A stretch of DNA of 43,437 nucleotides. Origin: a bacterium. Its GTDB lineage: Bacteria > Zhuqueibacterota > Zhuqueibacteria > Zhuqueibacterales > Geothermadaptataceae. The notes below the pieces were generated by a model. The model was not told the origin of the DNA, did not search any database, and was given only the letters and a program-made list of their open reading frames with translations. The position numbers and the translations under genes are program-made. The stretch is from assembly GCA_024275575.1 (NCBI GenBank), contig JAJRYV010000086.1, forward strand, positions 1 through 43,437, written 5' to 3'. Each line of letters starts with the position of its first letter. The stretch's first letter is position 1. This document shows positions 33,676 through 37,718 of the stretch, in pieces.

Positions 33676-35553
33676 GTGAAAAATTCATCAAAAGCTGCGC
33701 AAAAAAATCCCTGGCTATGGGTGCCGAGCCTCTACTATGCTGAAGGTTTGCCCTATGTTCTCGTCATGATCGTGTCGGTGATCATGTATAAACGATTGGG
33801 CGTATCCAACACCGATATCGCCCTTTACACCAGTTGGCTTTATCTGCCGTGGACCATCAAACCGTTGTGGAGCCCTCTTGTCGACGCCTTGCGTACAAAG
33901 CGATTATGGATCATCACAATGCAGCTTATCATCGGTGCCGGGCTTGGCGGCATCGCCCTGACGATTCCCGCGCCGGCTTTTTTTAAACTGACGCTGGCTT
34001 TTTTCTGGCTGCTGGCTTTCAGCTCCGCTACGCACGATATCGCGGCTGATGGCTTTTACATGCTCGGATTATCGGATCACGATCAGGCTTGGTTCGTCGG
34101 CATTCGCAGCACGTTTTATCGTCTGGCGATGATCACCGGGCAAGGTTTGCTGATCATTCTCGCCGGATTTATCGAAACGCGTACGGGGCCGGCGCCGGCT
34201 GAGTTTACCATCGTTACCCAGCCGGGTCGGGCAACCATTCATATGGTAGCTCCTGATTCGCTGCAAATTTCTGCGGAAGCAAGGGATGTAAGCATTCATC
34301 ACTATCCGGAAAAACCGGTGATTTCCACAGACTTAATGCTGCAAAACGAAGTTGATTCACTGATTAATTTTGCTCAAAGCTGGAACTTGCAGCATGGATT
34401 TACCAAGGGAGAGACAACAGCCGAGATTATTTCCAGGCAGGAAAAGCAGACGCCGTCATGGTTTGAAGACTTCATCGCAATACCGCTGGAGCATTTCCTG
34501 CGCGCTCATTGGGGGCAGCAAAGTCTCGTATCCAGTCGTGATAATCGTGTGGGCAGAGCACAACTGGTCTATCTTTATTTATCAAATGAACCGCCGGCCG
34601 GGGAAGAAATCGTCGTCAATTTCGGCCGTGGCGCCGGTGATAAGAGCTTTGTCGTCATCGAGGGATCGCGCTTTACCATTACACAGGAAAACTGGCAACG
34701 ACCCAGTCTTGCCGTCATTCAAATCGACGCCAAATTGCAAACTGCTTCACAGGCACATTTTATCGCCCGCGGCGGCAATATCCGGCTGGCATGGGTCGTA
34801 ACCTTTGCCGTTCTGGCCGCACTGTTCATTTTCTTTTTAATCTACCACAAATTTATGCTGCCCTACCCGGACAGCGATCGCGCAAGCGGGCAGGCATCAA
34901 ATATTTTCAGTGAATTTTTTACGACTTTCGCCACATTTTTTAGCAAAAAAGGTATCCTCGCCACCCTCGCTTTTCTGCTCTTTTACCGCTTCGCCGAAGC
35001 GCAGTTGGCCAAACTGGCCGCACCGTTTCTGCTCGATCTACCGGATGCCGGTGGTCTGGGGCTCACCACCGGACAATTGGGATTTGTTTACGGGACTGTC
35101 GGCGTTCTTTGCCTGGTGCTGGGCGGCCTGCTGGGAGGGTTTCTCGCAGCGCGCAACGGCCTGAAATACTGGGTGTGGTGGATGGTTCTGGCGATCAACG
35201 CGCCCAATGCAGTTTATATCTACCTGTCGCAAGCCATGCCGCAAAATGTATTGCTCATCAATCTCGCTGTCGGCATTGAACAGTTTGGTTATGGGTTTGG
35301 CTTCACAGCCTACATGCTGTACATGATTCACGCTTCCGAGGGCGAGCACAAGACCGCGCATTTTGCCATTTGTACCGGATTCATGGCGCTCGGTATGATG
35401 CTGCCGGGCATGCTGAGTGGCTGGCTGCAGGAAATCATCGGTTATCAGCACTTTTTTATCTGGGTTGTCATCGCTACGATTCCCAGCTTTATCGCTACAA
35501 AATTTATCTTCATCGATGCTGATTTCGGTAGAAAAAGGAGCAGGGAATCATGA
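33676..35553 (+). CDS. AmpG-like MFS permease with a large extracytoplasmic insertion
   Basis: The 625-residue protein starts at GTG. It has the AmpG/acetyl-CoA transporter-type MFS pattern: NPWLWVPSLYYAEGLPYVLV in the first helix, LYLPWTIKPLWSPLVD in the second, and THDIAADGF in the fourth. Five helices are visible to about residue 166. Then comes a hydrophilic stretch of about 200 residues (about 167-367) with no membrane helix, and then seven more helices. With a cytoplasmic N-terminus the insert falls in the loop between helices 5 and 6, outside the inner membrane. AmpG normally lacks it and has about 490 residues. Its likely role is uptake of muropeptides, suggested by the downstream NamZ gene. 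The insert's function is unknown. The next gene overlaps this stop codon as ATGA. Confidence 0.87.
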   Translation: MKNSSKAAQKNPWLWVPSLYYAEGLPYVLVMIVSVIMYKRLGVSNTDIALYTSWLYLPWTIKPLWSPLVDALRTKRLWIITMQLIIGAGLGGIALTIPAPAFFKLTLAFFWLLAFSSATHDIAADGFYMLGLSDHDQAWFVGIRSTFYRLAMITGQGLLIILAGFIETRTGPAPAEFTIVTQPGRATIHMVAPDSLQISAEARDVSIHHYPEKPVISTDLMLQNEVDSLINFAQSWNLQHGFTKGETTAEIISRQEKQTPSWFEDFIAIPLEHFLRAHWGQQSLVSSRDNRVGRAQLVYLYLSNEPPAGEEIVVNFGRGAGDKSFVVIEGSRFTITQENWQRPSLAVIQIDAKLQTASQAHFIARGGNIRLAWVVTFAVLAALFIFFLIYHKFMLPYPDSDRASGQASNIFSEFFTTFATFFSKKGILATLAFLLFYRFAEAQLAKLAAPFLLDLPDAGGLGLTTGQLGFVYGTVGVLCLVLGGLLGGFLAARNGLKYWVWWMVLAINAPNAVYIYLSQAMPQNVLLINLAVGIEQFGYGFGFTAYMLYMIHASEGEHKTAHFAICTGFMALGMMLPGMLSGWLQEIIGYQHFFIWVVIATIPSFIATKFIFIDADFGRKRSRES

Positions 35554-36458
35554 GAATCCGTTTGTTAAGAGATACGGATATCGAGAATATTCTGGCCTTG
35601 TGGAACCGGCATGCCGGATTTGACCAACTGACGCCGGAATTACTGGAAGAAAAAATCTGGGATGATGCGGACTATTTGAATGATCTGGCGCTGGTTGTTG
35701 AGCATCGTGGGCAAGTGATTGCGTTCGCTTTTGCCGTCATCCGGCCGCTGCAAAACTCGCCGGTGGGATACATCAAAATGCTGGTCGTCGATCGACGCTT
35801 TCAATGTCGCGGTATCGGCCGGCGTCTGCTTGAAACGCTGGAAAAGCGCCTTCTCGAACGGCAGGTTCACAGCGTGCGTATTGCCGAATCCGCGCCCAAC
35901 TATCTCACCCCCGGACTGGACCCCCGCTATACGCGGGCAATGGTGCTTTTCGAAAAAAACGGCTACAAACGGTTCAAGGAAACATGGAATCTTGAGGCTG
36001 ATCTGGCAAGACAGGATTTTACGACAACAGAAGCTGAAAAAGCGCTTGCAGGAAAAGGCATTAAAGTGCGTCGGGGCTGCTCCGATGACTCAGCGTCATT
36101 GGCCGCGCTTTTGCAGAAAACCGGCTGGACTGCCTGGGCCGGCGCCATCAAAAATGCATTCGCCAGCGAACCGGTGAATTTGCACCTGGCGATCAAAAAA
36201 CAAAACATCATTGCGTTTGCTGCGCACAATACCAACAACTATAATACGGGCTGGTTCGGCCCCGTGGCCACTCTCGATGAATGCCGCGGACTCAACCTGT
36301 GTTCGGTTTTATTGCACCGTTGCCTGCGGGATATAAAAGACAACGGCCACCGTTTCGCCATCATTCCCTGGGCGAATCCGGTATCATTTTATCTGCACCA
36401 CTGCGGCGCTGAAGTTTCCCGTGTCTTTTATCGTTATGAAAAACTCTTGGCAAAATAA
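35550..36458 (+). CDS. Double GNAT-domain acetyltransferase
   Basis: The ATG overlaps the permease stop codon by four bases, implying coupled translation. The 302-residue protein has two GNAT units. The first (about 1-150) has a good acetyl-CoA-binding motif A, IKMLVVDRRFQCRGIGRRLL (QCRGIG at 85-90). The second (about 165-302) keeps the beta pattern (FGPVATLDECRGLNLCSVLL) but a weaker loop, so it may be a structural or substrate domain. Lying between an AmpG-like permease and NamZ, it may acetylate a muropeptide or amino sugar, but the substrate is not evident. The stop codon TAA directly abuts the first ATG of the next gene. Confidence 0.85.
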   Translation: MRIRLLRDTDIENILALWNRHAGFDQLTPELLEEKIWDDADYLNDLALVVEHRGQVIAFAFAVIRPLQNSPVGYIKMLVVDRRFQCRGIGRRLLETLEKRLLERQVHSVRIAESAPNYLTPGLDPRYTRAMVLFEKNGYKRFKETWNLEADLARQDFTTTEAEKALAGKGIKVRRGCSDDSASLAALLQKTGWTAWAGAIKNAFASEPVNLHLAIKKQNIIAFAAHNTNNYNTGWFGPVATLDECRGLNLCSVLLHRCLRDIKDNGHRFAIIPWANPVSFYLHHCGAEVSRVFYRYEKLLAK

Positions 36459-37718
36459 ATGGAATTACCGATGAAATTATCCACAAGACAAGTGCTCAGT
36501 CTCATTCCTCTCATCCTTTTGCTTTTTGGAGCCTGCGCCGGCAATGAAAAGAATACGCCCGTCAAACCCGGGATTGATGTGCTTATCGGGCGAAACTTCG
36601 ATCTGCTGCAGGGCAAACGTGTCGGTCTGATTACCAATAATACCGGTGTGACAGCCGCTCTCAAATCGACCATCGATGTGCTGGTGGAGACAAAAAACGT
36701 CAAGCTGGCGGCGCTTTTCGGCCCGGAGCACGGGGTGCGCGGTAATATTTTTGCCGGTAAAAAAATCGGGAATTTCACCGATCGAAAAACCGGCCTGCCG
36801 GTTTACAGCCTCTATGGCGAAACCCGCCAGCCAACTGAAAAAATGCTGCAAGGCCTCGATGTTCTGGTTTATGATATTCAGGATGCCGGCTACCGCGCAT
36901 ATACCTATATTTATACTATGGCCTACGCGATGCAAGCCGCAGCGCAACACGATTTACAGTTCATCGTGCTCGACCGTCCCAATCCGCTGGGCGCCGATTT
37001 TATCGAGGGACCGGTGTTAGAGGAAGAATTCAGCTCATTTATTGGCTTGTACCCCATTCCTTATATTTACGGCATGACTGTCGGTGAGCTGGCTCAGTAT
37101 TTCAATAAAGAATTTGCAATCGATTGCAAATTGATAATTGTGCCGATGCAGGGCTACAAACGATCTATGCGCTTTGAAGATACAGGCTTGCAATGGGTTC
37201 CCACCTCGCCGCATATTCCGCGCGCCAATTCTGCAGTTTTTGCTGCAACGCTCGGTAACATCGGTGAACTGCATAAAGTTTCCGAAGGCGTCGGTTATAC
37301 GCAGCCTTTTGAAGTTCTTGGCGAGACATGGATCGACCCCGATGAATTTGCCGCTGAAATGAACAGTCGCAACCTGCCCGGCGTAATTTTCCGTCCCTGT
37401 TATTTCCGCCCTTATTATTTTATCAATGAAGGTAAAGAGCTCGGCGGCGTGCAAATTCATATAACACAAATACAGCAGTTCTCTCCAATGGCGGTGCAAT
37501 TGCATCTGATGCATGCGCTGCTGAAATGCTACCCAGAACACAATATTTTTACTGATGTTAGCGATGGTCGTATAAGCATGTTCTTCAAAGCTATGGGCAC
37601 AAAATTCGTTTCTGATGCTTTACTGGCAGGCAAAACACCCTCGGTAATCATGCAATCCTGGCAACCCAAAATTGAGGCATTCAGGCAGAAAAGAAAGCGC
37701 TATCTGATTTATAAATGA
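36459..37718 (+). CDS. namZ: NamZ-type exo-beta-N-acetylmuramidase lipoprotein (DUF1343)
   Basis: DUF1343 proteins have been shown, as NamZ of Bacillus subtilis and Tannerella forsythia, to release terminal N-acetylmuramic acid from peptidoglycan fragments. The family markers are all visible: GKRVGLITNNTGV, FGPEHGVRG (about 87-95 from the first ATG), VYDIQDAGYRAYTYI, FIVLDRPNPLG, and WVPTSPHIPRANS. The first ATG at 36459 abuts the GNAT stop. A second ATG at 36471 (MKLSTRQVLSLIP) gives a standard signal peptide with the lipobox LLFGAC. That start is likelier for secretion. Length (about 415) is normal. As a lipoprotein it would act in the periplasm, feeding products to the AmpG-like permease two genes upstream. 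Confidence 0.92.
   Translation: MELPMKLSTRQVLSLIPLILLLFGACAGNEKNTPVKPGIDVLIGRNFDLLQGKRVGLITNNTGVTAALKSTIDVLVETKNVKLAALFGPEHGVRGNIFAGKKIGNFTDRKTGLPVYSLYGETRQPTEKMLQGLDVLVYDIQDAGYRAYTYIYTMAYAMQAAAQHDLQFIVLDRPNPLGADFIEGPVLEEEFSSFIGLYPIPYIYGMTVGELAQYFNKEFAIDCKLIIVPMQGYKRSMRFEDTGLQWVPTSPHIPRANSAVFAATLGNIGELHKVSEGVGYTQPFEVLGETWIDPDEFAAEMNSRNLPGVIFRPCYFRPYYFINEGKELGGVQIHITQIQQFSPMAVQLHLMHALLKCYPEHNIFTDVSDGRISMFFKAMGTKFVSDALLAGKTPSVIMQSWQPKIEAFRQKRKRYLIYK

Follow-up and report, generated by a model that had tools for sequence, protein, structure and literature searches.

Fragments enter peptidoglycan recycling through AmpG, which in many Gram-negative bacteria is also the entry point of beta-lactamase induction. 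A permease of this type, bearing an additional domain in the loop between its fifth and sixth transmembrane (TM) helices, is encoded in the stretch of DNA considered here, the 43,437 nucleotides of contig JAJRYV010000086.1 (assembly GCA_024275575.1, a bacterium of the Zhuqueibacterota), which will be referred to as the window. Among the closest described systems are two kinds of transporter. The first is AmpG of the E. coli type (TIGR00901; Protein Data Bank (PDB) entries 8zke, 8zgz and 9c3f), which has the major facilitator superfamily (MFS) fold in common with the window permease; as the preliminary description of this DNA had stated for standard AmpG, the domain is absent from the solved structures, and the match between the permease profile and 8zgz is broken into two pieces, chain residue 171 standing at profile position 365. 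For the AmpG of Tannerella forsythia, participation in muropeptide uptake has been demonstrated (PMC5388701, PMC7670621); its operon is given in the order xanthan lyase, gtf, gtf, lytB, ampG and ybbC (PMC5388701), and its likely main substrates are N-acetylglucosamine (GlcNAc) linked to anhydro-N-acetylmuramic acid (GlcNAc-anhMurNAc) and GlcNAc-MurNAc (PMC7670621). The second kind are the mammalian peptide transporters PepT1 and PepT2, POT transporters whose two tandem immunoglobulin (Ig)-like extracellular domains are dispensable for transport and have been proposed to hold trypsin (PMC4597091).

The window permease, residing in the inner membrane, would be an AmpG-type importer of peptidoglycan disaccharides with an Ig-like domain spliced into the periplasmic TM5-TM6 loop. 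That the insert is a rigid accessory domain above the mouth of the permease can be held with moderate confidence; that it acts as a lid or vestibule over this periplasmic mouth is the favoured function, with a probability of about 0.4. Judging from how the papers are listed, no description of this insert was found in searches of the open-access literature on periplasmic domains and structures of AmpG, on the association of NamZ or SpoIID with AmpG and on Ig-like insertions in MFS proteins.

The permease gene occupies 33676..35553 of the forward strand, as do all the window features given below, and codes for 625 amino acids from a GTG start. Its assignment to AmpG, already proposed from the bare sequence, is borne out by structure, PDB and NCBIfam comparisons alike. 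TIGR00901, the AmpG subfamily, is the best NCBIfam match (170.1 bits, E 5.8e-50, in two stretches, below the curated cut-off of 350 bits); a profile search of PDB sequences also has AmpG as best matches, and by VIA-align the transmembrane part is closest to AmpG with bound GlcNAc-1,6-anhMurNAc (8zke, Z 36.7, 3.0 Å over 367 residues), followed by 8zgz at Z 34.0, the top non-AmpG chain having Z 31.0. The AlphaFold2 model contains 12 TM helices, the long helix 559-599 being counted as two: TM1-TM5 form the N-terminal half (residues 16-169, 33721..34182), as many helices ahead of the insert as had been claimed, and TM6-TM12 follow (residues 369-609, 34780..35502). The gene context is that of peptidoglycan recycling, with a NamZ gene in the window and, in 33 loci of relatives (26 with a long and 7 with a short TM5-TM6 loop), a SpoIID gene directly upstream of the permease, on the same strand and within 150 bases. 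Import of peptidoglycan disaccharides is a strong inference.

Alignment and the AlphaFold2 model place the insert at residues 170-367 (34183..34776), bordered by G171 and G367; the interval originally marked, 34174-34776, coincides with residues 167-367 to the letter and separates TM5 from TM6. This stretch of about 200 residues has no hydrophobic segment, as first noted: its highest 19-residue Kyte-Doolittle mean is 0.67 (start at residue 345, among starts 170-349), and the best values flanking it are 1.97 before and 2.82 after. Its predicted location is extracytoplasmic, in agreement with the preliminary description, since the MFS topology puts the TM5-TM6 loop in the periplasm and the positive-inside rule agrees: lysine and arginine account for 17 of the 111 residues in cytoplasmic loops and termini and for none of the 41 in the short periplasmic loops, with segment borders drawn by us from the full-length model. 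On loop charges and MFS topology a cytoplasmic insert is rejected, and an artefact of assembly or reading frame is dismissed by the finding of the same insert in many separate genomes.

The fold of the insert is predicted with confidence as an Ig-like beta-sandwich with a helical excursion. Modelled from 59 aligned rows, it has by itself a mean predicted local distance difference test score (pLDDT) of 89.7, and the full-length permease has a pLDDT of 86.4 and a predicted template modelling score (pTM) of 0.87; the secondary structure is nearly the same in the two runs, helix 281-285 appearing in the full-length one only. Nine strands are predicted, where about seven or more would be expected of a two-sheet sandwich of this kind. 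Three of them are N-terminal (residues 175-182, 206-210 and 215-217; 34198..34326), then comes the helical part (helices 223-239, 248-257, 262-279 and 281-285; 34342..34530), which is shorter or missing in some relatives as judged by eye, and six strands close the sandwich (295-302, 312-321, 325-329, 332-335, 344-350 and 358-367; 34558..34776). The beta-strand patterns first noticed in the sequence hold for its three named motifs, QLVYLYLSN (296-304), EIVVNFGRGAG (311-321) and SFVVIEG (324-330), which overlap strands 295-302, 312-321 and 325-329, and fail for residues of about 223-285, mostly helical. Structure prediction and fold comparison, put forward from the start as the way to check the insert, point to a structured, conserved domain of the Ig-like kind, and an unstructured linker is ruled out by pLDDT and conservation.

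The label Ig-like was chosen because of the strand pattern and of the homology described below, no single structural match being decisive. Foldseek returned nothing significant for the insert (best E 0.07). Among 997 chains compared by VIA-align, 24 reached a Z of at least 5 and none a Z of 8, below which matches are weak; the top two rows are a virion protein of phage SU10 (Z 7.3 and 6.9 over 92 and 90 residues, 3.3 Å), and PapD, MSP and Calx-beta chains follow at Z 5-6 over 81-90 residues. These matches support an Ig-like sandwich in general and favour no one family. The insert of the window has no Pfam or NCBIfam domain match; a Pfam scan of 59 inserts gave 13 weak single-member matches (best E 0.017), and the search for solved relatives by sequence in the PDB gave four (best E 0.4), all taken as chance.

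The evidence on the homology of the domain comes from bacterial Ig-like repeats carrying an NW-x-x-P-Q motif. A profile of the insert run against 290 genomes matched 36 at E of 0.01 or lower, and in one of these, G109, the match is not a permease: two tandem repeats (E 1.9e-7 and 3.3e-6) lie in an open reading frame (ORF) of 903 amino acids that also has a GSDH domain and whose product looks secreted. Relatives of the repeats were collected from 7 of 21 genomes, giving 35 copies, 23 after thinning. In hhalign comparisons, where E-values refer to a single pair, the whole insert aligned with the repeats at a probability of 96.5% (E 9e-10, 58 columns) and the beta core alone at 97.0% (E 9e-11, 70 columns), against 0.3% for the helical part alone, used as control. 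In the reverse search, with E-values computed for 116 proteins, the repeat profile scored below 1e-3 in 65 of 83 long permeases and in none of the 30 short ones; 64 of the 65 matches fall inside residues 160-400, and the window protein has an E of 5.3e-5. Because it was the insert profile that first picked out the repeats, the reverse search is not wholly independent of the forward one. On these profile comparisons the beta core is homologous to the NW-x-x-P-Q repeats, from which the insert differs in having an added helical part and in occurring as a single copy inside a membrane protein; K353 of the insert stands, by eye, at the position of the second acidic residue of many repeats. These repeats are labelled Calx-beta-like here; the Pfam Calx-beta model gave no match in the 59 inserts or in the two G109 repeats. 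As regards a Calx-beta set of Ca2+ ligands, D351 of the insert is retained in 82 of 83 rows and K353 in 77. In the distant permeases L137 and L114 the insert measures 132-133 residues and lacks the helical part, and its first strand, by eye, continues into the next, a hint that the helices were added to the loop joining the first core strand to the second; with the repeat profile the two permeases score 0.0035 and 2.7, neither reaching 1e-3.

The insert is common in the family. The full permease was matched in 51 of 99 relatives, and the TM5-TM6 loop of 116 aligned members comes in two sizes, short with 4-13 residues in 30 rows and long with 132-283 in 86 (typically an insert of about 200), with no intermediates; a survey of AmpG homologues, likewise suggested earlier, thus finds that the long loop is not odd for its clade. 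Carriers belong to Calditrichota, Neomarinimicrobiota/Fidelibacterota, Ignavibacteriota, Bacteroidota, Verrucomicrobiota, Planctomycetota and Sumerlaeota, seven named phyla, and nearly all are metagenome-assembled genomes (MAGs). In the group of genomes around G134, the permease profile matches 77 of 149; by our reading of the rows, the insert is present in 65 of these, the short form in 10, and the other 2 are too fragmentary.

Removal of ORFs not spanning the permease and of identical ones reduced 98 sequences to 93. The tree was built on the TM part, with 112 rows and 409 columns, omitting L135, the second copy of L097, L117 and L092, and retains a long-branch warning for L137 and L114. On it the state of the insert changes six times, each change being forced by starred branches, with a bootstrap range of 6-6. 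With six short rows of our choice as the root, the clade of the window (95 rows, support 98/96) contains 13 short rows in four places among 82 long ones. A tree made to unite these 13 inner rows in a single clade, a group defined with the tree already in view, is worse by 131 log-likelihood units (p-AU 1.2e-81) and is rejected. The count of six cannot by itself separate gain from loss; since the same domain lies in the same place, one presence at the base of the window's clade followed by four losses is the simplest reading. The losses look clean, because in L100, L101 and L103, for example, five residues (E-x-x-x-G) replace the insert neatly ahead of the same N-I/L-x-x-A-W found in the other permeases. 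Given these repeated losses, the insert is probably dispensable.

Conservation is uneven along the permease. Over 81 long rows the mean column value falls from 0.83 in TM1-5 to 0.47 in the insert, where residues 291-367 reach 0.61, and stands at 0.76 in the C-terminal half. Within the insert, single residues are kept almost throughout 83 rows: G171 (83), N237 (81), G293 (78), P306 (81), R332 (81), N339 (81), W340 (80), D351 (82), K353 (77) and G367 (83). A conserved edge, GDKS...R332, spans residues 321-335 (34636..34680); it ranks among the parts better coupled to periplasmic positions of the C-terminal half, a coupling that, as considered below, is seen after exclusions only.

How the domain might work as a lid can be proposed on this basis. 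In the full-length model TM5 (to residue 169) and TM6 (from 369) run nearly straight into the domain, and the two very short linkers would tie it to the N-terminal half, so that it would move as one body with that half; the packing over the mouth is read from pTM and linker length. The conserved edge (G321-D-K-S324 and R332) would lean across the periplasmic mouth to loops of the C-terminal half, and the resulting vestibule or lid may help to select, hold or gate GlcNAc-MurNAc-type fragments during the rocking of the two halves. The domain would tune uptake and would not be needed for transport itself, because insert-less permeases persist in several lineages. In its most specific form, with the Ig-like lid riding on the N-terminal half, touching the TM7-TM8 loop through the GDKS/R332 edge and coupling disaccharide capture to the rocking, the proposal is tentative and rather doubtful; if true, it would bring a substrate-receptor function inside the permease, replacing a separate binding protein.

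Residue couplings, from an alignment of 115 rows with an effective number of sequences (Neff) of 89, give a lead, not a proof, for the contact of the insert edge with the C-terminal half on the periplasmic side. In a rerun the gap limits were tightened, two alphabets were used, and the cytoplasmic loop 395-426 and the tail 610-625 were either kept or left out. With these two segments excluded and a reduced alphabet, insert partners lie preferentially towards the periplasm (p 0.001, 0.002 and 0.004 for the top 20, 50 and 100); the top 20 couplings between insert and TM part have a mean depth of 0.83 versus 0.47, with 1 of 1000 permutations as high, and the top 15 pairs include 318-456, 322-466, 324-466, 332-445, 330-592 and 329-101.

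Several results weigh against the lid. In the first coupling run the strongest partners of the insert lay in the variable cytoplasmic loop around residue 405 (permutation p 0.95, 0.89 and 0.98 for the top 50, 100 and 200), and the exclusion of loop and tail was chosen after that run, at a Neff of only 89. Without the exclusion the rerun has no periplasmic bias (p 0.36, 0.69 and 0.85; 0.98, 1.0 and 1.0 with 20 letters), and with exclusion the 20-letter alphabet gives a weak one (p 0.16, 0.048 and 0.084 for the top 20, 50 and 100). The strongest pair, 331-609, involves a residue at the cytoplasmic end in both alphabets, and so, in the favourable reduced-alphabet run, does 190-134 of the top 15. 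In addition, the median identity to the window is 31% in the insert versus 68% in the TM part, which fits a surface module equally well, and insert-less relatives occur in four places of the same clade.

The best surviving alternative, suggested by analogy and unlikely on the present data, is that the domain is a docking platform, which would keep a periplasmic peptidoglycan hydrolase or amidase beside the importer for immediate capture of its products. In the window NamZ is the second gene downstream of the permease, and 27 of 29 NamZ homologues have a hydrophobic N-terminus. However, the association expected if NamZ docked on the insert, a partner named in the preliminary description, did not materialise: among 57 loci with enough flank (36 long, 21 short), 8 of the 36 insert-bearing permeases and 11 of the 21 insert-less ones have NamZ at a distance of at most 5 kb. 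Six independent pairs, too few for significance, gave on average 0.4 with NamZ on the side of the insert, 2.1 against and 3.5 without difference. The commonest neighbour, SpoIID, appears to be on the wrong side of the membrane: no hydrophobic N-terminal stretch was found in 36 of 39 SpoIID-family ORFs (39 loci; simple hydrophobicity cut-off, stop-to-stop frames). From their sequences these SpoIID proteins look cytoplasmic, and their docking on the insert is unlikely. Of the families counted, BadF-type kinases alone are clearly more frequent next to long forms (within 5 kb of 11 of 36 versus 0 of 21; for example L036:4944-5873), but they too are presumably cytoplasmic; in the six pairs they score 0.6 with the insert and none against, a comparison without power once relatedness is allowed for, and their excess may only reflect relatedness. 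What narrowly favours the lid over docking is that the linkers are short and pTM is high, that polar residues are conserved, that no periplasmic neighbour is associated with the insert, and that couplings to the C-terminal half are seen, if tentatively.

Slightly less probable than docking is that the domain is a structural module, stabilising the permease, aiding its folding or making dimers, with no contact to substrate or partner. Such a role would suit the low conservation of the insert compared with the two halves (0.47 versus 0.83 and 0.76) and the several changes of state, but the polar residues N237, R332, D351 and K353 each persist in 77-82 of 83 rows across several phyla, above what the stability of a sandwich alone would lead one to expect. 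Least probable is a glycan-binding site, by which the domain would bind peptidoglycan strands or free disaccharides and raise their local concentration or tether the permease to the sacculus: Ig-like modules are often carbohydrate-binding or adhesive and the homologous G109 repeats sit in a secreted-looking GSDH protein, but no carbohydrate-binding family is among the 13 weak Pfam matches of the 59 inserts, and the PDB search gave no solved sequence relative.

The comparison with PepT1 and PepT2 is one of architecture, an MFS importer having Ig-like folds built into one of its extracytoplasmic loops, and no homology is claimed; the mammalian proteins carry two domains in tandem, the window permease one. 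The predicted fold of the insert, its position and its losses would fit a dispensable extracytoplasmic domain of the PepT type, of which it may be a bacterial counterpart. In PepT the domains are inserted later in the fold, between TM9 and TM10. An importer of a large bacterial group carries an extra domain without a Pfam family, and sister permeases with and without it provide natural deletion experiments.

In the window the permease is followed head to tail by a GNAT acetyltransferase gene (35550..36458), found from the ORF list and the Pfam scan, which overlaps the end of the permease gene, stop codon included, by 4 bases, and by the gene of NamZ, an exo-beta-N-acetylmuramidase (36459..37718; PF07075 E 7e-88, PF20732 E 6e-42), the whole downstream block covering 35550-37718. 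The N-terminus of NamZ (LLLFGAC) resembles a lipoprotein signal, the lipobox being judged by eye. No SpoIID was found on the contig of the window, which carries GNAT and NamZ instead and differs in this from the Tannerella operon with its lytB. A second NamZ is present elsewhere in the source genome (G000:C81:20108-20725).

Neighbours were surveyed in 91 loci (63 long, 28 short), each cluster being named from one scanned member. Two SpoIID clusters occur in 34 and 7 loci, NamZ in 24 (38 in a looser clustering), GT2 in 24, DUF4922 in 19, NagX-like proteins in 12, and two BadF-type kinase clusters in 9 and 10 loci, the 10-locus cluster having no Pfam match and being named by eye; the name NagX rests on the L081 member, which scores 124 bits, below the cut-off of 480. 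Within 5 kb, GT2 accompanies 15 of 36 long and 8 of 21 short forms, and NagX-like proteins 4 of 36 and 4 of 21; SpoIID and DUF4922 were left out of this comparison since iterative BLAST merged both sets. GT2 and DUF4922 are frequent neighbours of the SpoIID-permease pair, as in L081:2083-4658. This insert-bearing Bacteroidales locus has the order Golvesin_C, GT2, DUF4922, SpoIID, permease, NamZ, flavin adenine dinucleotide (FAD) oxidase and NagX-like; it corresponds to the order of the T. forsythia operon of Tanf_08365 and is the only surveyed locus with SpoIID directly upstream and NamZ directly downstream of the permease. Among 38 mapped SpoIID ORFs, 33 are directly upstream of the permease (examples are L094:4632-5993, L033:4633-5958 and L081:4634-5977). 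Their cytoplasmic look is odd for a family otherwise known on the outer side of the membrane; cleavage of imported glycan fragments is a possible role.

Some permeases depart from the usual pattern. The distant relative L117 (L117:3397-3825, reverse strand) has in the same TM5-TM6 loop an insert of 134 residues, with no visible Ig-like similarity and no Pfam match, possibly an independent insertion at the same site; it is counted among the 86 long rows though its insert looks unrelated. In the G134 genome the permease match (L112:1106-2730, reverse strand) is split, with a stop codon inside and, by eye, a SpoIID-like gene beside it. The Sumerlaeota permease L092:5393-7615, omitted from A1 and A2, has a loop of 283 residues, about 80 above the usual length. 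In a Prevotella MAG, an insert-bearing permease is directly followed by an insert-less paralogue with an open frame of 394 residues (L097:5998-8988).
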